Below, piece by piece: positions 5,485 through 15,231 of a stretch of 44,265 nucleotides of DNA. The position numbers and the translations under genes are program-made. The DNA is from Bacilli bacterium. GTDB lineage: Bacteria; Bacillota_I; Bacilli_A; ML615J-28; CAG-698. Every line of letters begins with the position of its first letter. Within the stretch, counting starts at the first letter, position 1. Under the pieces are notes generated by a model. The model did not search any database. It was not told the origin of the DNA and saw nothing but the letters and a program-made list of their open reading frames with translations. The DNA lies in NCBI GenBank assembly GCA_918272565.1, contig CAKJYW010000002.1, positions 1-44,265 of the forward strand. The letters run 5' to 3'.

Positions 5485-5985
5485 CTATTTATACTTCTCT
5501 AAAAGAGGTAATAACCACTTTAGAATCCAGCGTTTAGTTGTGTCATAATTTCCTGAATCATAATATACAGCTCCAACCATAGCTTCAATATATGGATCAT
5601 GTGCCTTATGCACAACTTGCTCATGGTCAGGAATATTTGGATCTTTGAAGAAATGTAAATCGTTATAAGAATAATCAATTAAACCTTCGTTAATCATTAC
5701 ATCATGCATTGTTGCATTGTCTTCTATACCGTTCTTTTTAATTGTGATCTCACCTTTGGTTCTTATTCCTTCTCTATAAAACTTATCAGCAATAACTGAT
5801 TTTAATATAGTATCACCAACAGTCGCCAAGCCTTCATTAGAATATTCAGAGCCGTTCTTTCCTTGACCTGGAACAGGTATTTTTATAGAACCCATAGCTT
5901 TAGCAAGCCAAGATATGTCATTGAAATGATAATGAATTTTAATCTCTAATTCTCTCATTTCACTTTCTATTCTTTTCTTTTCCAT
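5485..5985 (-). CDS. RNase III-fold protein with altered catalytic positions
   Basis: 166 residues aligning by eye to the RNase III nuclease domain: a YHFND start, NEGLATVGDTIL (50-61) where active enzymes have NERLEFLGDAVL, and DPYIEAMVGAVYYDSG (130-145) where they have DxxEALIGAIYLDSG. Of the four metal-ligand acids in E. coli RNase III, the equivalents of Asp45 (D58) and Glu117 (E134) are kept. The Glu41 equivalent is Ala54, and the Asp114 position is shifted by one residue (D130, then P131). No double-stranded RNA-binding domain follows. It may be a weakened nuclease or an RNA-binding scaffold. Its ATG overlaps the stop of the radical SAM gene by 1 bp (TAATG), and it is the last gene of the long AAA-ATPase operon. 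It is not the housekeeping Rnc. Confidence 0.75.
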   Translation of the reverse strand: MEKKRIESEMRELEIKIHYHFNDISWLAKAMGSIKIPVPGQGKNGSEYSNEGLATVGDTILKSVIADKFYREGIRTKGEITIKKNGIEDNATMHDVMINEGLIDYSYNDLHFFKDPNIPDHEQVVHKAHDPYIEAMVGAVYYDSGNYDTTKRWILKWLLPLLEKYK

Positions 5986-6557
5986 TACTTATCACCAACC
6001 AATCTAGCTATATCTTCGGTTAAAAATCCATTAACATCCATATTACCTTCTTCATCAATGGTTAATATTGCTGTTGTAAATCCATCCTGAATTTTATAAC
6101 CTTTATATGGTCCATTGTGAGTATATACTCGTTGATTGGTTGAACCTCTAAATTGAAGATTAACATTTCTTTTCTTGATTTGAAAACGACCTGCCACAAC
6201 AATGTCAGAAATATTCCAAACTTTTAACTGTTCGTTATTAAGTTCCTTTTTTAGATAACCAGTGAATAATATCGCTGTATACTTTTCATTCTTAATTGTC
6301 TTAACAACATCATATAAACCATTTGCTTGATCTAATGGCTCGCCTCCATGTATTGTTATTCCTTCTAAGCTTTCTTTTTTGCAGATTTCAAGAATATCAC
6401 TGGAGTTCATAATTGTTCCGCCTTCAAATGGCCATAAGTGCTGATTAATACATCCTTCACAATGAATACTACAACCTTTAAGGTAAATTAATAATCTTTT
6501 ACCTGGACCATACAAATGCTCATTTTCAACGATCATTAACTTGTGGACTCTAATCAT
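5985..6557 (-). CDS. NrdG-like radical SAM / 4Fe-4S protein
   Basis: 190 residues. GPGKRLLIYLKGCSIHCEGC contains the CxxxCxxC motif (Cys29, Cys33, Cys36) that binds the 4Fe-4S cluster of radical SAM enzymes, followed by WPFEGG and GGEP (71-74), which contacts S-adenosylmethionine. The overall layout is that of activases of anaerobic ribonucleotide reductase (NrdG) and of the short radical SAM proteins often annotated as such. No NrdD or other glycyl-radical protein lies in the window, and the gene is coupled by 4-bp and 1-bp overlaps to a DUF2997 gene and an RNase III-like gene, so a ribonucleotide-reductase role is unlikely. It more probably modifies or activates a component of this operon; the substrate is unknown. 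Confidence 0.85.
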   Translation of the reverse strand: MIRVHKLMIVENEHLYGPGKRLLIYLKGCSIHCEGCINQHLWPFEGGTIMNSSDILEICKKESLEGITIHGGEPLDQANGLYDVVKTIKNEKYTAILFTGYLKKELNNEQLKVWNISDIVVAGRFQIKKRNVNLQFRGSTNQRVYTHNGPYKGYKIQDGFTTAILTIDEEGNMDVNGFLTEDIARLVGDK

Positions 6558-6757
6558 GAATTCTTAGCCTTTATTGTGTTATCTACAGTTGTTCCTTCTT
6601 TAAAGAATTCTTCTTTTTTAGTTGTAGTTGATTCCAAAGCTAAATCTTTAAGAAGTTTGTCTAATTCTTCCAAACATTCTGTACCTTCCATACCGAATGT
6701 TTCAGCATTTATTGAACCTTTATCATCAATATCAATAACTATTTTTTTATCAGCCAT
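6554..6757 (-). CDS. DUF2997 family small protein
   Basis: 67 residues. The first half, KKIVIDIDDKGSINAETFGM followed by EGTECLEELDKLL, is the DUF2997 pattern (a short beta hairpin with I-D-G-x-I, then a G-x-x-C helix). The conserved Cys is present at about residue 28. The remainder is a charged, probably flexible tail that is longer than in most members. Proteins of this family occur next to DUF1257/Ycf35 and Ycf46-type ATPases in cyanobacteria and other bacteria, and the same trio is present here. The biochemical role is unknown. It overlaps its neighbours by 1 bp upstream and 4 bp downstream. Confidence 0.8.
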   Translation of the reverse strand: MADKKIVIDIDDKGSINAETFGMEGTECLEELDKLLKDLALESTTTKKEEFFKEGTTVDNTIKAKNS

Positions 6758-7500
6758 TATTCACACCTCACAAGTACTAATTGAGTTTGAGTACCTTTCT
6801 TCACTTCTTGAACTGCATATCCCATTTGTCTAGCTCTAGCATAAATCAATTTAGCTGTTCCATCTCTTAACTGTGAATTTGTTTTATTAACTGTCGTTTG
6901 AGCATCTTTAGAAATCTTCATGAGCTTATTTCTAATTTCATTAGCATCAGTTACCCATTGACCTTCTGAACGACCAATTAATCTTCCATCCTCAGTTTCT
7001 TCTGTGATAGTTCTTGTTCTTGTAGTCACATACTGGCCATTTTTCTTTATATTTCTAACCATTTCTAGAACATTTAAATCGATATTTCTAGTGACACTGT
7101 TTTCATTAAGGATCTGACAAATAACATCTGTTAATTCCTGATTTGCAATATTAGTTCCGAAGTCGAATTCTCTTTCAAGTTGTTTTAAAACAGTCAATAG
7201 TTCATCAGTAATGATATAGTTTTTACCTTTCAATGAACATTGAACTTGCTTAATATTTAGTCCAAATGCCTCAGCAACAGTCACTAAGTCCGAACATATA
7301 TTATATCTATCATTAACTAATATCATTCCATTACCAGAATATACATTGCAATTTTTAATTAAGATATTAAGTTTTTCAAGTTTCTGCTCAATAGAAGAAA
7401 TTATTGTTTTTTCTAGCTCTTCAAGTTCCTTTTTATCACAGCATTCAATTCTAACTTCTTCAACTTGCTGAAATGTATGAACCCTTCTTTCACAACTCAT
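6757..7500 (-). CDS. DUF1257 (Ycf35)-like protein
   Basis: 247 residues. The C-terminal block RQMGYAVQEVKKGTQTQLVLVR, preceded by a Gln/Thr/Asn-rich helix, matches the usual ending of DUF1257/Ycf35 proteins (a G-x-x-V-x-E pair followed by a beta strand). The N-terminus (HTFQQVEEVRIECCDKKELEELE) fits the family's 'input to a conserved beta-alpha unit' start. The middle, about residues 60-180, is an insertion I do not recognise; it includes TTRTRTITEETEDGRLIGRS, which looks like a beta hairpin. The assignment rests mainly on the C-terminus and on the neighbouring DUF2997 and Ycf46-type genes. CAAGGAGG lies 7 nt before the start. Function is unknown in every organism, to my knowledge. Confidence 0.65.
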   Translation of the reverse strand: MSCERRVHTFQQVEEVRIECCDKKELEELEKTIISSIEQKLEKLNILIKNCNVYSGNGMILVNDRYNICSDLVTVAEAFGLNIKQVQCSLKGKNYIITDELLTVLKQLEREFDFGTNIANQELTDVICQILNENSVTRNIDLNVLEMVRNIKKNGQYVTTRTRTITEETEDGRLIGRSEGQWVTDANEIRNKLMKISKDAQTTVNKTNSQLRDGTAKLIYARARQMGYAVQEVKKGTQTQLVLVRCE

Positions 7501-7504
7501 AGAA

Positions 7505-9688
7505 TTACCTCCTTGTAATGCACTTTAATCTAAATTCAGTACATATAGATTTTGTTTTTTCAAATTCATCTAAATTATTAATTATGATGTAACGTTGTCC
7601 TTTTTTATCATATACAGCATAATCTTCCGGTATACTTTCCTTGGATAGTTTATCCAAAGTTACCAAGCATTCATCATCATATTTTTTTATTGAAAATAAA
7701 TAATTCTCAACAAATGCTTCAAGCTTTGCTAGTTTTGTTTCTTCTTTAGGTTTCACTATATTTCCTATTGAATCATCATTAATAACCTTATGTTTTCCTT
7801 CTAGCAATTCCTCGCAATGCTTTATAAATGTATTTAGATTCTTATCATTTCTTGATCCTGAGTTACTTTCAAAATGCTTTTTCAATTCTAATAGATCATT
7901 AATTTTCTTTGTTAAGATTTCTACTCTTCTCTTATTACTTAAAACATCAATACCTTTTTGAATTAATGCATTTTTTTCTTTAATTGTTTGTTCATATCCA
8001 GCAATCTCATTATCAAACTTATCAAATTTAGTACCAGAACTTTCTTTATTAAGAGAATTAAACATGCATTTGCAAATATCAATTAAACTTTCTCTATTTT
8101 TCTTGTATAAGGCAATCATAGAGTCAATCCAATTATAATAGTCTTTGTAATTACAATTCTCTACTCGATCTTGAAATTCTTTTGTAAATCTCTCAGTTTC
8201 TAATAAAAACTCAATGAAACCATAATCTTGTTCCATAAATGCATTATAAGAATTCAATATACTTTTTATTTTCAAGATCTGTTGCTTGTTCCAAGCTGAA
8301 TTTAATTCATGTATTCCTTCATATATATTTGATTCAGAATATTTAGAATCAAATAATGGTGGAATAAGTGTAAATTGGTATTCAACTTTTTTTGCTTCGG
8401 CAGAATAATCATTATGCTTCTCTACTATTGATGAATCAAATGTCTCAGAAACAAAATCACTCATTAATTCAACATCAACATTTATTGATAATACTTTCTT
8501 TTCAATTATGTTGAGCTTTTCTATTTTGCCATTATAGCAAGAAAATATTTCACCTTTCAGCTTATCGGTTTCTATTGAATCCTTATAAAATCCAGATTTA
8601 TATTCCATACCTAAAAAAGATGAAATTTTTTCTATTGGATATGATAAATAAAAACCGCTATTAGTCATAGTGACACATGATAATGTATTATTTTTATAAA
8701 CAACAACTATCCCGTTTTGAGTAAAGTCACTAATGAGTAATTCAAGTTTGTTTTCTTTAGAATAATTGAATATTCTATTATTAAAATGCTTAGTATTAAC
8801 TGCATAATAACAAGAGATTTTATTTTTAAATGCAGCATTTATAACCATCGAATAATCTTTTTGGCCATCACTATCAACAATGATTAATTCACTAGCATCA
8901 TTTAAGAACGAATAATCACCTTTTAGATTCTTATTTTGAAAGTACACTTTGTATAGTGAATCATCAATTTCAGTATAACCATCTGCAATCATAAAATGGC
9001 CATTATCTTTTCCAATTATTCCTATGTAATTAAAATCAATACTTTTATCTATTTTTTTACTATTATATGAGAAATTATTATAGCCTTTAATAATTGAATC
9101 ATCTTTTGCAATGATATTTAATTTGATATATTTATTTGCCCACTCTATTTCATTAATTATTCTACTAGATAAACATGAATCACATAAAATTAGATTAACT
9201 TCATTTGAATGAGTAATTAATCTAATAACATCAGATATCATTGTGTCCTTATATAGTCGATTCTTATTAATGCCTAAATCGAACGGATGAAATAATGTCC
9301 ATCCCTTATCAAAAGTATTTTCTTTTGTAATTATTACTTTTTTATTTTCAATCATGCTTATCACTTCTTTTTCTTGTTTTTCATTAATAATAGGTTCTAC
9401 TTGAATAGGCTTTGATTTAATATCTTCTTTTGGCTTCAAAGCATAATCATCAAAAATATACTTATCAGCTTGTAAATATTTCTCACTTAATTCTAAAGCT
9501 GGTCTTGATAAAACTATTCGAAGAATGATTGGTGTTCCTACTAATTTGGCATACTTTTTAGGTGAGTAACCAGATTTTAAAGATGAAGTTGCAACAAAAA
9601 CATCTGCCTTTTTCTTGTATGAATGAAGCAAAAGCCCATCTTCTCTAGCTTCTTTAATTTCAATTCTAATTAACTCACCTTTTTTCAT
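7505..9688 (-). CDS. 727-residue protein of unknown family in the AAA operon
   Basis: No family recognised with confidence. Residues 1 to about 75 (GELIRIEIKEAREDGLLLHS...) read like a small beta-barrel of S1/OB type. Residues about 115-340 alternate strands and helices and include 'NGHFMIADGYTEID', which recalls the His-x-x-x-x-x-Asp strand of phospholipase D-like folds but lacks the lysine of an HKD motif. The region from about 450 to 640 is helical with coiled-coil character (KNALIQKGIDVLSNKRRVEI). The last 60 residues form a compact end domain. The gene lies between the AAA ATPase (3 bp gap) and the DUF1257-like gene, and is probably a structural or substrate-recognition partner of the ATPase. 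AGAAGGA precedes the ATG by 10 nt. Confidence 0.8.
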   Translation of the reverse strand: MKKGELIRIEIKEAREDGLLLHSYKKKADVFVATSSLKSGYSPKKYAKLVGTPIILRIVLSRPALELSEKYLQADKYIFDDYALKPKEDIKSKPIQVEPIINEKQEKEVISMIENKKVIITKENTFDKGWTLFHPFDLGINKNRLYKDTMISDVIRLITHSNEVNLILCDSCLSSRIINEIEWANKYIKLNIIAKDDSIIKGYNNFSYNSKKIDKSIDFNYIGIIGKDNGHFMIADGYTEIDDSLYKVYFQNKNLKGDYSFLNDASELIIVDSDGQKDYSMVINAAFKNKISCYYAVNTKHFNNRIFNYSKENKLELLISDFTQNGIVVVYKNNTLSCVTMTNSGFYLSYPIEKISSFLGMEYKSGFYKDSIETDKLKGEIFSCYNGKIEKLNIIEKKVLSINVDVELMSDFVSETFDSSIVEKHNDYSAEAKKVEYQFTLIPPLFDSKYSESNIYEGIHELNSAWNKQQILKIKSILNSYNAFMEQDYGFIEFLLETERFTKEFQDRVENCNYKDYYNWIDSMIALYKKNRESLIDICKCMFNSLNKESSGTKFDKFDNEIAGYEQTIKEKNALIQKGIDVLSNKRRVEILTKKINDLLELKKHFESNSGSRNDKNLNTFIKHCEELLEGKHKVINDDSIGNIVKPKEETKLAKLEAFVENYLFSIKKYDDECLVTLDKLSKESIPEDYAVYDKKGQRYIIINNLDEFEKTKSICTEFRLKCITRR

Positions 9689-9691
9689 ACA

Positions 9692-11293
9692 TTAAACGTC
9701 CTTCTTCTTTGTTATAAATGGATTTTTGTATTCTTGCTGTAATCTTGGTACTTCAGCACCTAAATCTTTTACATCTTCAGGAGCATCAGTACTTGCCAAT
9801 CTAGCTCTTTGTTCTGCCCATTTTCTTAAGTTAGCTATTGTTTCTGCCATAGTTCTTGATAATGGTGAAGTTGCAGCAATACAATCAAGTAAATTTTTCA
9901 TTTCAAGATCTTTTTGACCATTTGCATAAGCATTAAATAATGCTTCATTTACAACCTCTTCAATTTCAGCGCCAGAGAATCCTTCACTAGCTTTTACAAG
10001 TTTTTGCATATCTAATTTAAGCTCTTTTGCATCTCTATTTTTATTTTTTAAATGGATATTAAAGATATTTTCTCTTTCTCTAGCAGATGGTAAATCAACA
10101 AAGAATATTTCATCAAATCTACCTTTTCTTAGTAGTTCTGGAGGTAAAGCGCTAATATCGTTTGCAGTCGCAACAACAAATACTGGTTCTTTCTTCTCTT
10201 GCATCCAAGTTAAGAATGTACCAAATACTCTGGCACTAGTTCCACCATCAGTTCTACCACTTGATTGTGTTCCGCTTAGTCCTTTTTCAATTTCATCAAT
10301 CCACAACACACATGGTGAGATTGTCTTAGCAACATCTAATGCATATCTAATATTTCTTTCTGATTCGCCAACAATTCCACCAAACACTTTACCTAAATCG
10401 AATCTTAGTAATGGGAACTTCCATTCATTTGCGATAGCTTTTGCTGTTAATGATTTTCCACAACCTGGAACACCCAGTAATAAAACACCACGTGGAGTAT
10501 TTAGACCAAACTCCTTAGCCTCATCACTATAAGCATTACCACGCTTATGAATCCAATCTTTTAAGTTTTCCAAACCACCAATGTTTGTTAAATATTCTTT
10601 TGGATGGAAATATTCAAGTAATCCACTCTTTTTGATTATTTGTTCTTTTTCACTAATAATTAGAGGAATTTCATCTTCTGTTAACTTTCTATTAGTAATA
10701 ATAGCTTTCGCAAATGCCAATCTAGCTTCCATTACAGTTAGACCAAGCGCAGATTCAAGAAGTTTAGGAGTGATTTCACTTTCCATGCAGTATTCGGTGT
10801 ATTCTTCAACAACACTATTAGCTATTACCTCAATTGTTGATCTGTCTGGTAATTCGACTTCTATAACAGGTAATTCTTTTGAAAGTTCTTCTGGGACAAA
10901 CTTATTAGGTGAACTTAATATAATTGCTTTCTTGTAGTTTCCTTGATAGTTTTGAGCACGCATCATCTCTCTAATATATCTAATATTAACTGGATTATTA
11001 GTCTCACTATAAGGATGGAAATCCTCTAGCACAAGTAGCATGTCATTTTCATTTTTTAAATAATAATCTAAAACTGCAGGCAAAGTTACGCAATCAGGAT
11101 TAATAATTTTAAATCCATTACCTTCCCAAACTTTTAATCCAGAAACGCTGCTCCACGAATACCAATCTACATTTAAATCTTCTGCTACATAGTTGGTAAA
11201 TCCATGTACTCTTTCCCATTCGAACGAAGCAACTTCAACAACTTTTGCTCCTGCTTTAATTAAAGTTTCTAATTCTTCTTCATAATATCTCAT
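9692..11293 (-). CDS. Ycf46-type AAA+ ATPase
   Basis: 533 residues. The N-terminal third (about 1-220) is the RecA-like/degenerate domain typical of Ycf46 proteins, with LLVLEDFHPY near 86-95. The C-terminal AAA+ module has Walker A GVPGCGKS (274-281), Walker B VLWIDE (329-334), sensor 1 TAN (376-378), arginine-finger region LRKGRFDE (388-395) and sensor 2 GAEIEE (441-446). The Walker B Glu is present, so it should hydrolyse ATP and probably forms a hexameric ring. No protease or metal-binding domain is fused. Shine-Dalgarno GGAGG lies 8 nt before the ATG. Ycf46, DUF1257 and DUF2997 genes cluster in other bacteria and the same trio is here, so it is the likely motor of this system. Confidence 0.92.
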   Translation of the reverse strand: MRYYEEELETLIKAGAKVVEVASFEWERVHGFTNYVAEDLNVDWYSWSSVSGLKVWEGNGFKIINPDCVTLPAVLDYYLKNENDMLLVLEDFHPYSETNNPVNIRYIREMMRAQNYQGNYKKAIILSSPNKFVPEELSKELPVIEVELPDRSTIEVIANSVVEEYTEYCMESEITPKLLESALGLTVMEARLAFAKAIITNRKLTEDEIPLIISEKEQIIKKSGLLEYFHPKEYLTNIGGLENLKDWIHKRGNAYSDEAKEFGLNTPRGVLLLGVPGCGKSLTAKAIANEWKFPLLRFDLGKVFGGIVGESERNIRYALDVAKTISPCVLWIDEIEKGLSGTQSSGRTDGGTSARVFGTFLTWMQEKKEPVFVVATANDISALPPELLRKGRFDEIFFVDLPSARERENIFNIHLKNKNRDAKELKLDMQKLVKASEGFSGAEIEEVVNEALFNAYANGQKDLEMKNLLDCIAATSPLSRTMAETIANLRKWAEQRARLASTDAPEDVKDLGAEVPRLQQEYKNPFITKKKDV

Positions 11294-11305
11294 GTGGTAA
11301 TCCTC

Positions 11306-11680
11306 CTAAATCTTTATGAACATCTCATTTATTATTTTTCCATTACGATCTTCTATCTCAAATTTAACTTCATATGATAGATAATTATTTAAATCGTTAA
11401 AAGTGTGATATGCTTTATTTCTTTCCACTTCAACAATATCTATTTCATCGTTTCTAAGATATAATTTCAATCTATAGCATGAAGCTTCATTAGATTTAGT
11501 CCACCATACCATTTTCCCTTTGCTATGAAGGGTGACTCCTTTATTAGAAACAGTGCATTCTTCTTGAGAAGAAGTTAACTTTTCCAATTTCATATTGATT
11601 GATGCTAATTGAGTTTTTACATCTGCTAATGCTCTACCTACAGCACCACTTATAATGTCACCTTGACTTATTACTGGCAT
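11306..11680 (-). CDS. Small protein with C-terminal Fn3-like domain (member 4)
   Basis: 124 residues. Residues about 1-45 are a short helical segment (AVGRALADVKTQLASINMKLEKL), possibly a coiled coil for oligomerisation. The rest is a beta-rich domain that aligns with its three upstream neighbours at two places: 'VEVERNKAYHTFNDL' and 'FEIEDRNGKII'. The shared pattern V-E-V-x-R-N, then F-x-x-L, then E-D-x-N-G-K is that of a fibronectin-III-like beta sandwich. There is no signal peptide, so the protein is probably cytoplasmic, which is unusual for Fn3 domains in bacteria. It is the last of the four before the AAA ATPase (12 bp gap). Confidence 0.7.
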   Translation of the reverse strand: MPVISQGDIISGAVGRALADVKTQLASINMKLEKLTSSQEECTVSNKGVTLHSKGKMVWWTKSNEASCYRLKLYLRNDEIDIVEVERNKAYHTFNDLNNYLSYEVKFEIEDRNGKIINEMFIKI

Positions 11681-11697
11681 AATCTATTCCTCCTCTT

Positions 11698-12117
11698 TTA
11701 ATAAAATAATGAATAAAAACCATTTTCTAAAACAAATACCGAACCCTTTTCTTTGTTACTTTTAGAAATTATTTTTCCATTTTTATCTTCTGCTTCAACA
11801 TAGATATAATAATTTTTCCCCGTTGAATAATCCTTTGAATAGCCACAAAGGCCATGTCTCATACGTTCATCTGGATGTTTTTGATCTATTTTTCCTAAAT
11901 TATTAAATGAACAATATCTAATATTTCTTTCCAATTCTATTAAGGCAATCTCTTTAAAAGTTTCTTCCCCTTCTACTAAAGTTTGTCTTCCATTGATAAT
12001 ATGCATCTCCAAATGTTTATCACCTATCAATAGATGAACATAATATCTAGCTGCATCTTTTTCTTCATCCCAATAAGCCATTAACCCATTTAATAAACTT
12101 TCGATATATATATTCAT
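11698..12117 (-). CDS. Small Fn3-like protein (member 3, paralogue of the preceding gene)
   Basis: 139 residues, nearly all one beta-sandwich domain: 'MAYWDEEKDAARYYVHLLIG', 'DKHLEMHI', 'LIELERNIRYCSFNNLGKID', 'YYIYVEAEDKNGKIISKS'. It is clearly a tandem duplicate of the gene at 12126-12521, sharing long identical stretches. No signal peptide or membrane segment. It has its own start 8 bp after the previous stop. The domain resembles fibronectin type III, in which the final E-D-x-x-G strand packs against the sheet. Function is not known; such domains usually mediate protein contacts. Confidence 0.75.
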   Translation of the reverse strand: MNIYIESLLNGLMAYWDEEKDAARYYVHLLIGDKHLEMHIINGRQTLVEGEETFKEIALIELERNIRYCSFNNLGKIDQKHPDERMRHGLCGYSKDYSTGKNYYIYVEAEDKNGKIISKSNKEKGSVFVLENGFYSLFY

Positions 12118-12125
12118 AAAATCCC

Positions 12126-12521
12126 CTATCTTGATACTATTAAAGTACCATTATATGTATTACTGAATGTCTCAACAATAGCACAAACTTTATCAGTTTT
12201 TGAAATGATCTTGCCGTTTTTGTCCTCCGCCTCAACATATACATAATAATTTTTACCCGTTGGACTAAGACCATTATTATTGTTTCTAACTTTATCAATT
12301 TTAGCTAAATTATTGAATGAATAATATTTTGTATTTCTATCAACTTCAACTAATCCTATTTCTTGATAAGTTTCAATGCCAGTTGTTTGTACTCTTCCTG
12401 ATAAATCAAATGCTTTATGTTTATCACCTATCAATAGATGAACATAATATCTTGCCGCCTCTTTTTCTTCATCCCAATAAACCATAAATCCATGTAACAT
12501 TGGCCCAATATATGCATTCAT
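12126..12521 (-). CDS. Small Fn3-like protein (member 2)
   Basis: 131 residues. It is the close paralogue of the downstream gene: both begin MN-x-YI, followed by a YWDEEK-AARYYVHLLIGDKH block and a YVEAEDKNGKIISK block. The middle differs, with a shorter loop here (NNNNGLSPTGKNYY). No signal peptide, no cysteines in conserved places. GAGGAGAAA precedes the ATG. Its start lies 2 bp past the stop of the 388-residue protein that contains the same domain at its C-terminus. The duplicates are probably recent, since the DNA is also similar over the YVHLLIGDK stretch. Confidence 0.75.
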   Translation of the reverse strand: MNAYIGPMLHGFMVYWDEEKEAARYYVHLLIGDKHKAFDLSGRVQTTGIETYQEIGLVEVDRNTKYYSFNNLAKIDKVRNNNNGLSPTGKNYYVYVEAEDKNGKIISKTDKVCAIVETFSNTYNGTLIVSR

Positions 12522-12523
12522 GA

Positions 12524-13690
12524 CTATTTCTCCTCAACAAAATATGTTGGATATCCATTAACAATCCCACGACTCAACGCAATAGTTTTGCCACTTCTAT
12601 CTTCTGCTGCAACTTTAAAAACAAAAGTATTTCCTATTAAACCTGAAATAACTAGAATGTTTTCATTTCTATCGACTGTATAATCATTTAAATGATACAA
12701 ATCTTTTCTTCCGTTAACTTCAATGATTTTATATAGAGAAACAATATAATCTGCAGCATCGTCTACTTGCTTCCAGTAAACGTTAAAAGTTTGTCCATCT
12801 CTAATAACATACGGTAACAAACTCAATTCATTTTCACATTTATCCAGAATACACAGTTTACTCTTAGGAGTATCATAAGGAAGATAATATAATCCCTCTA
12901 AAGTTATATCCTTTGTAATCCTCCCTTTTGCTGTATCTAAATCACAAATCAAATTACTTTTATTAGGATACTTGTATACTTTTACAACTTTTGCAAGTCC
13001 ATAAGATACGAGATAAAACTCTTTATCCATCTGAATATCTGAAATATCTGGTTTCATTAATTTTCGCTCATTAAAATCTTCAAGCAACCATACATTATAA
13101 TCATTCATCTGTTTTTTACTATCAATTGTAATTTCATATGATTCATTTTGAGTATATCTTGAAGAACCAAAACTAGTAAAATAATTAGCTTTAAAAGTAA
13201 TTTTAATAGATTTGATTTTTACAGATTTTTCTTGACCTTTCACTAAATTAGAATAGCCATATCCATAACCATAATAATTATTTCGATTTGTTTTGCTTTC
13301 ATCTTTAATATAGTACGATTCTTTATCCCATTCTTCTTCATTTAAGAAAGAAAGCATATCTCTATTGCTTAATGGTTCAAACCGATTATCAATCTCCTGA
13401 AACACTTGATTCATACTGTATTGTTTGTTACTACCTATATTTAAACTTAGATTGCTTATCGAAATAGTTGAAACCCCAAATCTATCCAGAAAAACATGCA
13501 TTCCTATTGGCTTAAATAAATTAACTTTTTTGCTCTTCATACCATTAGTCTCCTTAGTAATTACTTTTTCTTCTTGTGTGGCTCTTGCTTCAATCTGAGA
13601 TGATTGCATTAAACTAGGACTATTTCCAACCGGTTTGTTAATCATTCCCCATCTTCTCAAATTTCTATTACTTGGTCCAATTACTCCCAT
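12524..13690 (-). CDS. 388-residue protein with C-terminal Fn3-like domain (member 1)
   Basis: The first about 60 residues are polar and low in structure (RNLRRWGMINKPVGNSPSLM). A central beta-rich region follows, with a tyrosine/glycine stretch NNYYGYGYGYSNL (about 136-148). The final about 110 residues carry the domain shared with the three downstream genes: 'TFNVYWKQVDDAADYIVSLY', 'YTVDRNENILVISGL', 'KVAAEDRSGKTIALSRG'. No signal peptide or membrane helix. I do not recognise the central region. It may be the full-length version from which the smaller domains arose, or a scaffold to which they bind. It lies 12 bp downstream of the first gene of the operon. Confidence 0.75.
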   Translation of the reverse strand: MGVIGPSNRNLRRWGMINKPVGNSPSLMQSSQIEARATQEEKVITKETNGMKSKKVNLFKPIGMHVFLDRFGVSTISISNLSLNIGSNKQYSMNQVFQEIDNRFEPLSNRDMLSFLNEEEWDKESYYIKDESKTNRNNYYGYGYGYSNLVKGQEKSVKIKSIKITFKANYFTSFGSSRYTQNESYEITIDSKKQMNDYNVWLLEDFNERKLMKPDISDIQMDKEFYLVSYGLAKVVKVYKYPNKSNLICDLDTAKGRITKDITLEGLYYLPYDTPKSKLCILDKCENELSLLPYVIRDGQTFNVYWKQVDDAADYIVSLYKIIEVNGRKDLYHLNDYTVDRNENILVISGLIGNTFVFKVAAEDRSGKTIALSRGIVNGYPTYFVEEK

Positions 13691-13702: not shown

Positions 13703-14632
13703 CTATAAATCTAGCGGATTGATAATAGCATCAATTTGGTCTTGAACTACTTCTTCAAAATAATCATCATAATCCCATTGAGCATCATCAGCATTCTCAT
13801 TAAAAGCTCTCGCACATAATTCATCAAAGAATAAATGTAAGTTATCCAAACAATCTAAGATGAATTTCTCATCTAGCTTAACAACAGAAAGTGCAGATTC
13901 ACCATTTTGATATCTATCTTCTGGGTCCCAAACCATATTAGGATACCATTGTTTCAAGATCTTATATGATCTAAGAGAGTTATGCTTTAGAAAATTCCAA
14001 ACAGTAAATGCTCTATCATAAAGTTTGTAATTATCATATTGTCTGAATGATATTGCATTGTTACCCTGTAAACCTTGCATATAAATATCAAATTGTTTCT
14101 TAGTATAATCTTCTTCTTTATAACCACAGGCAGTTAACATCTTTAAGCATAACGCATCAATACTGGACATTAATTGATGGAAAAATTGAGCGTATAAAGA
14201 TTTAATAATTACTTTATAATCTTTTGCTCTTTTAATACCTGCTATAAATGCTTTTTCATTAGCCTCTTCGTAATCAAGCACTCCATCAGCTAAATGTGCA
14301 ACTCTTGCATCATCTTCTACTTGTTTTGGAGTTTTAATACTATCAATGAAGCTTTTATATTCTTTAAACCATAATTGTTTATAACCTGTTAATAGATCTC
14401 TAAACCAATTACATTTATATTCAGATCTATGTTGCTTGGTAGGAAGATAATAAACAGAATGTCTATTTTCAATTTTACTATCAGGAATAGTAAAGAATTT
14501 TTTATAACGTTTTGTGTCAATTTTAATTCTACCATCTTTAGCGATAAGACCATAATAATCGATTCTATCACATAGGTTTTCTTGTTCTAATTTATTATAG
14601 TCTTTGCCTATAACTTTGCTCTTTTTCTTCAT
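13703..14632 (-). CDS. First gene of the AAA operon: helical protein of unknown family
   Basis: 309 residues, mostly helical. The last about 180 residues include 'RAFTVWNFLKHNSLRSYKIL', a K-H-N element of the kind seen in some HEPN-like helical bundles, but the R-x4-6-H motif is not present and I do not claim HEPN. The C-terminus is very acidic (NADDAQWDYDDYFEE). No membrane segment or signal peptide. Translation starts 10 nt after AAGGAGGTG. The start codon is embedded in the regulatory leader: its bases pair with an upstream segment (see the leader entry), so expression of this gene is likely to be controlled after transcription starts. Confidence 0.8.
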   Translation of the reverse strand: MKKKSKVIGKDYNKLEQENLCDRIDYYGLIAKDGRIKIDTKRYKKFFTIPDSKIENRHSVYYLPTKQHRSEYKCNWFRDLLTGYKQLWFKEYKSFIDSIKTPKQVEDDARVAHLADGVLDYEEANEKAFIAGIKRAKDYKVIIKSLYAQFFHQLMSSIDALCLKMLTACGYKEEDYTKKQFDIYMQGLQGNNAISFRQYDNYKLYDRAFTVWNFLKHNSLRSYKILKQWYPNMVWDPEDRYQNGESALSVVKLDEKFILDCLDNLHLFFDELCARAFNENADDAQWDYDDYFEEVVQDQIDAIINPLDL

Positions 14633-14868
14633 GTTATTGACACCTCCTTAAAACGAAAAAGTGACGGTAGGTATTAGCCTATCGCCACTTCAATAACATT
14701 TATCCTCTTCATATGTTATTTTGTTTAGACACGCAATACCACTCTTGAAATTTAGCTTTTAACTATTGGTTTACTCCTCATATGGTATATCCCAACCATA
14801 AGATTCGCTCCAACATTTCATATAGGTAAAGTTCTTACTCCACTGTTTCAGAACATGCATTTGTATCT
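14633..14868 (-). ncRNA. Structured 5' leader of the AAA operon with attenuator and alternative pairings
   Basis: From the likely start point (about 14868) to the first gene there are about 236 nt. Three segments can pair exclusively on the minus-strand RNA. Segment B, AUGUUAUUGA (14699-14690), can pair with A, AAUAACAU (14720-14713), as an 8-bp hairpin. Or it can pair with C, UCAAUAACAU (14640-14631), a perfect 10-bp helix that covers the AU of the first gene's AUG and encloses the Shine-Dalgarno. Between B and C lies an intrinsic terminator. Choosing A-B would leave the start codon free; B-C would hide it. More hairpin potential exists upstream (for example UAUGGU/ACCAUA). I do not recognise a known riboswitch or T-box. 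A 29-codon reading frame (14771-14860) lies in the leader without a good ribosome site. Confidence 0.6.
14650..14690 (-). terminator. Intrinsic terminator inside the leader (attenuator)
   Basis: Minus strand: AAGTGGCGATAGG pairs with CCTACCGTCACTT around loop CTAATA (13 positions with one mismatch and one G-U), followed by TTTTTCGTTTT and then directly by AAGGAGGTG. A terminator abutting the ribosome site of an operon's first gene is a hallmark of attenuation. Confidence 0.85.
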
Positions 14869-14875
14869 AGGCTTA

Positions 14876-14925
14876 ATTATACCATAATCCTGCTAATTTT
14901 AGCAATATTATGAGCATAATTGCCT
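14876..14925 (-). promoter_or_regulatory. Promoter and candidate operators of the AAA operon
   Basis: Minus strand: TTGCTA (14905-14900), 18-bp spacer, TATAAT (14881-14876). The -35 is overlapped by an inverted repeat TGCTAA-2 nt-TTAGCA. Just upstream, ATTATG-2 nt-CATAAT is a second inverted repeat. These are plausible binding sites for the small XRE protein encoded upstream. A second TATAAT occurs near 14937-14942 and may be an additional start. The 14926-15000 stretch has nothing else. Confidence 0.65.
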
Positions 14926-15000: not shown

Positions 15001-15231
15001 TTATCTCATTACGAGTAAGTCCTCCATTTTCATATTGAATATTAGAGCAAGATTATACAAGTTTTCAGCATTAGGAATTTTCATTCCGCTTTCCCAATCG
15101 TATATCACTCTAGGTGATTTTAATTGGAGTAACCCAGCTAAATCTTCATGAGTTAGAGCTGATTTACAACGAAGCATTCTTAGCCTTAAACCAGTTGATA
15201 CTTTATCTAATATGGCTTTTTGATAATCCAT
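15001..15231 (-). CDS. Small XRE-family regulator upstream of the AAA operon
   Basis: 76 residues, almost entirely one HTH domain: 'RLRMLRCKSALTHEDLAGLL', 'SPRVIYDWESGMKIPNAENL', 'LALIFNMKMEDLLVMR'. The ATG at 15231 is chosen because GGAGG lies 9 nt before it; a TTG two codons earlier is only 3 nt from the Shine-Dalgarno. It is transcribed toward the AAA operon and ends about 100 bp before that operon's promoter, which carries two inverted repeats, so it is the best candidate regulator. An imperfect inverted repeat (TACTT..AAGTA type) at about 15272-15298 overlaps its own probable promoter (TGTATACT) and may be an autoregulatory site. Confidence 0.82.
   Translation of the reverse strand: MDYQKAILDKVSTGLRLRMLRCKSALTHEDLAGLLQLKSPRVIYDWESGMKIPNAENLYNLALIFNMKMEDLLVMR

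Follow-up and report, generated by a model that had tools for sequence, protein, structure and literature searches.

In type III toxin-antitoxin systems (ToxIN, CptIN and TenpIN), an RNA is encoded upstream of the protein and a terminator lies between the two. A published survey of candidate RNAs is also said to contain structured RNA motifs upstream of DUF3800 genes, and the AbiF protein has been proposed as an ancestor of Cas13. In C. difficile, the ncRNA RCd22 and the HEPN toxin AbiF share one SigA promoter, most transcripts end at a terminator located between them, and RCd22 binds AbiF directly and so neutralises it both in cis and in trans (PMC12373285). For AbiD1, a 5'UTR responsive to a phage protein is referred to among the works cited there (PMC12373285). 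The locus described here carries a leader RNA which probably controls or partners the uncharacterised protein encoded after it.

The DNA analysed (the window) was a stretch of 44,265 nt from contig CAKJYW010000002.1 of Bacilli bacterium, CAG-698 (GCA_918272565.1), in which the leader and its operon are located on the minus strand (Table 1). A sequence-only reading of the window had described a 90-base element ahead of the operon. This element is real, but it corresponds to the 3' end of a much longer leader of about 235 nt. The 5' end of the leader was placed from the promoter at 14905-14876, and in an alignment of four genomes the conservation of the leader begins at this predicted transcript start. 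Identity in the four genomes was 94-98% in the leader, compared with 61-89% at the fourfold-degenerate sites of the next gene and 33-76% in the DNA upstream of the promoter. The difference between the leader and the fourfold sites points to strong purifying selection across nearly the full leader. Only 18 positions differed or contained indels among the four leaders, six of them within the 13-nt loop of hairpin H1; the arms of H1, the loop of the terminator and segment c (see below) were invariant. The fold of the window leader RNA had a z-score of -2.55.

Table 1 Features of the leader and its surroundings in the window
Feature	Coordinates	Strand	Description and basis
76-aa HTH protein	15001..15231	-	Just upstream of promoter; orthologue in L010, L011
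Promoter	14876..14905	-	TTGCTA - 18 - TATAAT, TG-extended -10; 10/12 consensus positions; predicted transcript start about 14868
Complete leader RNA, conserved and structured	14633..14868	-	Identity and fold
P1 5' strand	14863..14868	-	AGAUAC; pairs with 14732-14727; compensatory replacements in homologs
P2 hairpin	14831..14854	-	GUUCU (14854-14850)/AGAAC (14835-14831), loop GAAACAGUGGAGUA
Core 5' strand	14821..14827	-	ACC-UAUA; ACC pairs with GGU 14740-14738; sole such site in window
P3b 5' strand	14815..14820	-	UGAAAU; pairs with AUUUCA 14751-14746
P3 insert	14752..14814	-	UUGG/CCAA and AUGGU/ACCAU hairpin; peculiar to window-type leaders
Core 3' strand	14738..14745	-	AGAGU-GGU; invariant or nearly so across homologous leaders
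P1 3' strand	14727..14732	-	GUGUCU; partner of 14863-14868
H1 hairpin (a:b)	14692..14720	-	Arms AAUAACAU/AUGUUAUU, invariant in four window-type leaders
Terminator-like hairpin and UUUUU	14656..14689	-	Sequence and fold; terminators of other sequence at same place in L024, L029, L034, L035, L038, L042
Shine-Dalgarno	14643..14649	-	AAGGAGG; sequence
Segment c	14631..14640	-	UCAAUAACAU; ends on AU of AUG at 14632; start-codon pairing partner of b
309-aa protein, first operon gene	13703..14632	-	No match in Pfam or NCBIfam and no clear one in PADLOC
Type A cargo	5485..13690	-	388 aa, three small repeat-like ORFs, AAA ATPase, 727 aa, 247 aa, NrdG-like radical SAM, 166-aa RNase III-like

Three complementary segments at the 3' end of the leader, a (AAUAACAU, 14720-14713), b (AUGUUAUUGA, 14699-14690) and c, were found by inspection of the minus strand exactly where the sequence-only reading had located them. 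The first 8 nt of segment b are complementary to segment a (a:b), and b and c can form 10 perfect pairs which cover the start codon (b:c). The complementarity of b and c exceeds chance: when b was fixed and the start region was shuffled, matches of at least 8 nt with b occurred in 0.15% and a match of 10 nt in none of 20,000 shuffles, and the a-b-c triple did not occur in 20,000 shuffles of the whole 90 bases, all of these being post hoc tests of the complementarity. Between b and c lies the hairpin AGUGGCG.UAGG-CUAAUA-CCUA.CGUCACU (14689-14660), whose stem has 7 + 4 pairs flanking one mismatch and which is followed by UUUUU; the claim of a terminator-like hairpin with a U tract ahead of the first ribosome site was thus correct. 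The three pairings had also been regarded as mutually exclusive. However, the bases of the terminator are disjoint from both a:b and b:c, and only the latter two compete with each other. The terminator was therefore rejected as a third competing partner, as it can form in either state. No pairing of the kind that characterises a riboswitch or attenuator, competing with the terminator, was found among those proposed; other or tertiary competitors are possible.

Transcription reaches segment c later than the terminator. The b:c pairing could therefore form only once the polymerase has read past the terminator, and hence could affect translation but not termination. In the isolated 90-mer, the state with b:c and the terminator was predicted to be more stable than the alternative (-21.3 versus -17.7 kcal/mol). 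In the predicted fold of the 310-nt read-through transcript, a:b dominated, with a mean pair probability of 0.92 versus 0.02 for b:c. Of the suggested states, in which the start codon is freed by a:b or hidden by b:c, the two do exclude each other, but b:c would rarely form in the long transcript. When the three segments were compared among related leaders, H1 and the terminator were found to recur with other sequence, but b:c was confined to four near-identical leaders, and reading of the diverged leaders L024, L029, L034, L035, L038 and L042 gave no instance of it. A conserved b:c switch was rejected for this reason.

The conserved part of the leader is instead a core located further upstream, which was found in the leaders of most of the about 20 loci encoding diverged relatives of the 309-aa protein. 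Its elements follow the order P1, P2 hairpin, NACC-UAUR-P3b...P3b'-RGAGU-GGUN and P1', and form a three-way junction with CCUAUR opposite RGAGUGG. Covariation was evaluated in an alignment of ten leaders, none of them window-type, on the minimum free energy (MFE) structure of one member, and the folds of L039 and L040 reproduced the same junction. Standard pairs made up 94% of the cells and compensatory change was found in 13 of the 18 pairs; none of 500 shuffles reached any of the measures and slid controls collapsed, although a structure derived from a member is favoured over its slid versions. A structure-guided table to which the window, L022, L024, L035, L038, L042 and L060 were added was 98% paired, with 14 of 16 pairs compensated, and leans towards that structure because it was aligned to it by hand. 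For example, the P2 stem is replaced by UUCC/GGAA in L038 and by GCAU/AUGC, GCAA/UUGC and others elsewhere. As indicated by these compensatory changes across diverged members, the leader is a structured RNA family with covariation.

The RNA model R1 did not recognise the window leader, owing to an insert in its P3 that is about 60 nt long. This insert is folded, and a compensatory change from AUGGU/ACCAU to AUAUAU/AUAUAU was seen between the window and L038. The membership of the window leader in the family is based on synteny, the motif and the structure-guided alignment. The core descriptor CCUA[UA]...GAGUGG[UC], for which about two stray matches were found in 268 kb of loci on both strands, has a single site in the window; this site falls within the leader, its inner stem has 6 pairs, and its register matches that of the relatives. 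The family fold of the window leader is 3.6 kcal/mol above its MFE. The core was not visible in the leaders of L036 and L037, which encode relatives, and only parts of it were found in L034 and L041. No class with this sequence had been known to the sequence-only reading, and the leaders indeed matched no Rfam 15 family at either gathering or permissive thresholds. By this comparison, the covarying RNA family is new.

What follows the core varies. The order of core, H1 and terminator was observed in the window type, L024, L029, L034, L035, L038 and L042, with a different sequence in each, and hairpins of other sequence occupy the place of H1 in L024, L034, L035, L038 and L042. No evident terminator follows the core in L015, L022, L039, L040 and L043-L048. 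In L015, L039 and L040, the Shine-Dalgarno or start codon is included in CUCC/GGAG-type hairpins, and in L044-L047 a UAAAC/GUUUA-type hairpin extends into the AUG region. Occlusion of the RBS or start codon thus recurs in diverged leaders by unrelated sequences, but b:c itself, the form that had been proposed, is found in the window type only. From this pattern we conclude that the conserved function probably resides in the core, and that terminator and occlusion would be interchangeable means of lowering protein relative to RNA.

The relatives of the 309-aa protein (about 20 loci, 27-46% identity) occur sporadically across the same class. An FxKHN motif is invariant in the family, and the catalytic Arg of HEPN proteins is not conserved. 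AlphaFold predicted an all-helical protein at low confidence (four sequences, pLDDT 54), and no fold match was found for this model. Searches of the family against Pfam, NCBIfam, PADLOC and PDB sequence profiles gave nothing significant, and none of the 21 family members matched Abi_2 (PF07751) in Pfam. In the profile-profile comparison with Abi_2 (hhalign), NFLKHN lined up with RNxxAH at a probability of 0.2%, which is not significant. Given the low-confidence helical model and this non-significant alignment, "HEPN-like" is used for the 309-aa protein as a hypothesis only.

The association of RNA and gene was evaluated by R1 scans of 146 genomes of one family and of 296 genomes across the class; because R1 misses window-type leaders, these scans tested the short form only. 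Strong matches were found in ten of the 146 genomes; in nine of these the RNA precedes the family gene, and in G654 the match lies at a contig end. The sole strong match among the 296 genomes (G050) also had the RNA before the family gene. Weak R1 matches of about 17-22 bits were seen at 11196-11259 of the window, inside the AAA gene, and in L059, L080 and L081. In a nucleotide search, the window-form leader was found in three of 199 relatives, including the window's own, all with the gene; a weak 36-nt match was seen in G159. No relatives were found in phages, plasmids or viral contigs, and there is thus no sign of carriage by sequenced phages. In G634, a solitary extra copy of the RNA (L060 1501-1568, P1 GUGUGGCA/UGCCACAC) is located 1.9 kb upstream of an intact module and is followed by only a 30-codon ORF, without a recognisable protein; it may be a decoy, a remnant or a stand-alone RNA. 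In another locus (L024/L031, G223), stop codons and a frame change disrupt the family gene, but the leader core and terminator are intact.

The leader had been assigned to the AAA operon but is not specific to it: together with the first gene it is found ahead of differing cargo, of which at least two types were distinguished, or with no cargo at all. The gene order of type A, the type in the window, is identical in L093 and largely kept in L082. Type B (L083, L089 and L091) consists of SF1-helicase-like, DUF4145/HEPN-like, ClpB-like AAA and radical SAM genes. Across the cargo operons (window 5485-6557 and 9692-13690; L082, L093, L083, L089 and L091), the ATPases are interchangeable and an NrdG-like radical SAM protein is common, and a small RNase III-like protein occurs in the cargo of the window, L091 and L093. 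Comparison with named defence systems gave only generic AAA/IetA matches. With its GmrSD-like and type I restriction-modification genes, the window is a defence island. Several further features of the neighbourhoods were observed. One of the three type A repeat-like ORFs has a weak fn3 match, and two adjacent small paralogues (12126-12521 and 11698-12117) share a YWDEEKxAARYYVHLLIGDKH motif and resemble a tandem duplication. A 726-aa cargo protein of L083 (3906-6086) has C-terminal DUF4145 and weak RiboL-PSP HEPN similarity, and is a second HEPN-like candidate in its operon. In G050, a DUF3800 gene (L094 1449-2144) adjoins the module and has its own hairpin-rich leader (about 2145-2260), which ends in a U tract and matched no Rfam family.

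Compared with AbiF/AbiD and their ncRNA (RCd22, abiF motif RF03085), the module has the same succession of promoter, structured ncRNA, Rho-independent terminator, RBS and protein gene, and like AbiF/RCd22 its RNA is tied to one protein family and found in mobile or defence regions (PMC12373285). It differs in that its protein has no Abi_2 match, that its RNA is a three-way junction of roughly 70-145 nt whereas RCd22/abiF RNA consists of two 36-37-nt motifs, and that it is followed here by multi-gene cargo. RF03085 gave no match at the gathering score, nor, for the window and L044, when the E limit was raised to 10; since it also found no match beside 11 Abi_2 genes of related genomes, this result is weak evidence on the RNA side. 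The type III layout of RNA gene, terminator and protein gene can be recognised in the sequences of the window and several diverged homologs, but no tandem repeats were seen in the module RNA and the protein has no match to those toxins. Similarly, the DUF3800-linked motifs also consist of a structured RNA before one uncharacterised mobile protein family, but the protein family is a different one. Riboswitch and attenuator leaders such as the T-box share the conserved junction RNA, the terminator and the RBS occlusion; unlike them, the module has no Rfam riboswitch match and no regulon, and its terminator is not overlapped by the proposed pairings. In its layout the module resembles AbiF-RNA and type III modules, yet it fails the sequence tests for AbiF RNA and Abi_2.

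The conserved and covarying RNA, its link to one gene family and the promoter-, terminator- and RBS-like sequences can all be read in the DNA itself. By analogy, we consider the chances about even that RNA and protein form a partnership, with the RNA as antitoxin or cofactor, in an AbiF/RCd22-like organisation. RNA polymerase would start at about 14868, and the transcript would fold into the three-way junction (P1, P2 and P3 with the CCUAUR/RGAGUGG internal loop) and then H1. Most transcription would stop at the terminator (14689-14656), which would give a discrete RNA of about 210 nt in excess, and occasional read-through would give the operon mRNA. In this mRNA the start codon or Shine-Dalgarno may be further hidden, by b:c here and by other hairpins in relatives, so that terminator and RBS occlusion would together keep the RNA in excess of the protein. 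The RNA would bind the 309-aa protein, for which we infer toxicity or nuclease activity, and hold it inactive or load it, as RCd22 does with AbiF; the supply of RNA would then set the activity of the protein. A more specific proposal is made tentatively: the RNA could be a trans-acting antitoxin, cofactor or guide of a new, non-AbiF HEPN-like family, the pair being a sensor that gates interchangeable ATPase/radical-SAM/RNase-III-like operons with a presumed role in defence.

Of the other explanations, the one that survives best, though we think it rather unlikely, is autogenous attenuation, in which the core is the binding site of the 309-aa protein or of some other factor, which sets read-through or start-codon exposure in cis only. 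The terminator ahead of the RBS, the RBS-occluding hairpins in many relatives and the single protein family downstream would all be expected from it, and the AbiD1 5'UTR would be a precedent as far as its citation in PMC12373285 goes. However, none of the proposed pairings provides an antiterminator that overlaps the terminator, the core is kept in leaders without a terminator, and near-complete constraint over 235 nt together with the solitary RNA copy exceeds the needs of a simple operator. A metabolite riboswitch, in which a large aptamer would be joined to a terminator or RBS platform, is improbable. It would account for the strong conservation of the junction core and the variability of the expression platforms, but in the genomes scanned the leader precedes one protein family only, with no transport or metabolic regulon, its distribution is sporadic (4 of 199 relatives) and the cargo varies, the core being kept where the cargo differs. 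The single downstream protein family and the retention of the core where the terminator is gone fit an RNA-protein module better. From the original reading as a riboswitch or protein-controlled attenuator, the conserved folded leader with a terminator was thus retained and the three-way switch was not, and control by a protein in cis may still apply.

It is very improbable that segments a, b and c are an incidental 8-nt direct repeat in an ordinary 5'UTR with a weak terminator, since the absence of b:c from diverged leaders and its rarity in the long transcript would be explained in this way for b:c at most, and for the full leader it is excluded by conservation and covariation. Translation-coupled attenuation by a leader peptide was rejected: the 29-codon ORF (MHVLKQWSKNFTYMKCWSESYGWDIPYEE) is open in all four window-type leaders, but it has no Shine-Dalgarno and begins 8 nt from the predicted start of transcription, the differences among the four leaders are nearly all non-synonymous in it, and the frame is lost in L038, where the RNA helices are kept by compensation.

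If the favoured RNA-protein partnership is correct, this RNA family and its unannotated protein family would represent a second, apparently independent case of the AbiF layout. The pairing of a structured RNA with a HEPN-like protein would then have arisen more than once, and such RNA-protein pairs could stand at the head of complex operons of several genes in defence islands. With the alignment and the RNA model, binding, neutralisation and defence become directly testable.
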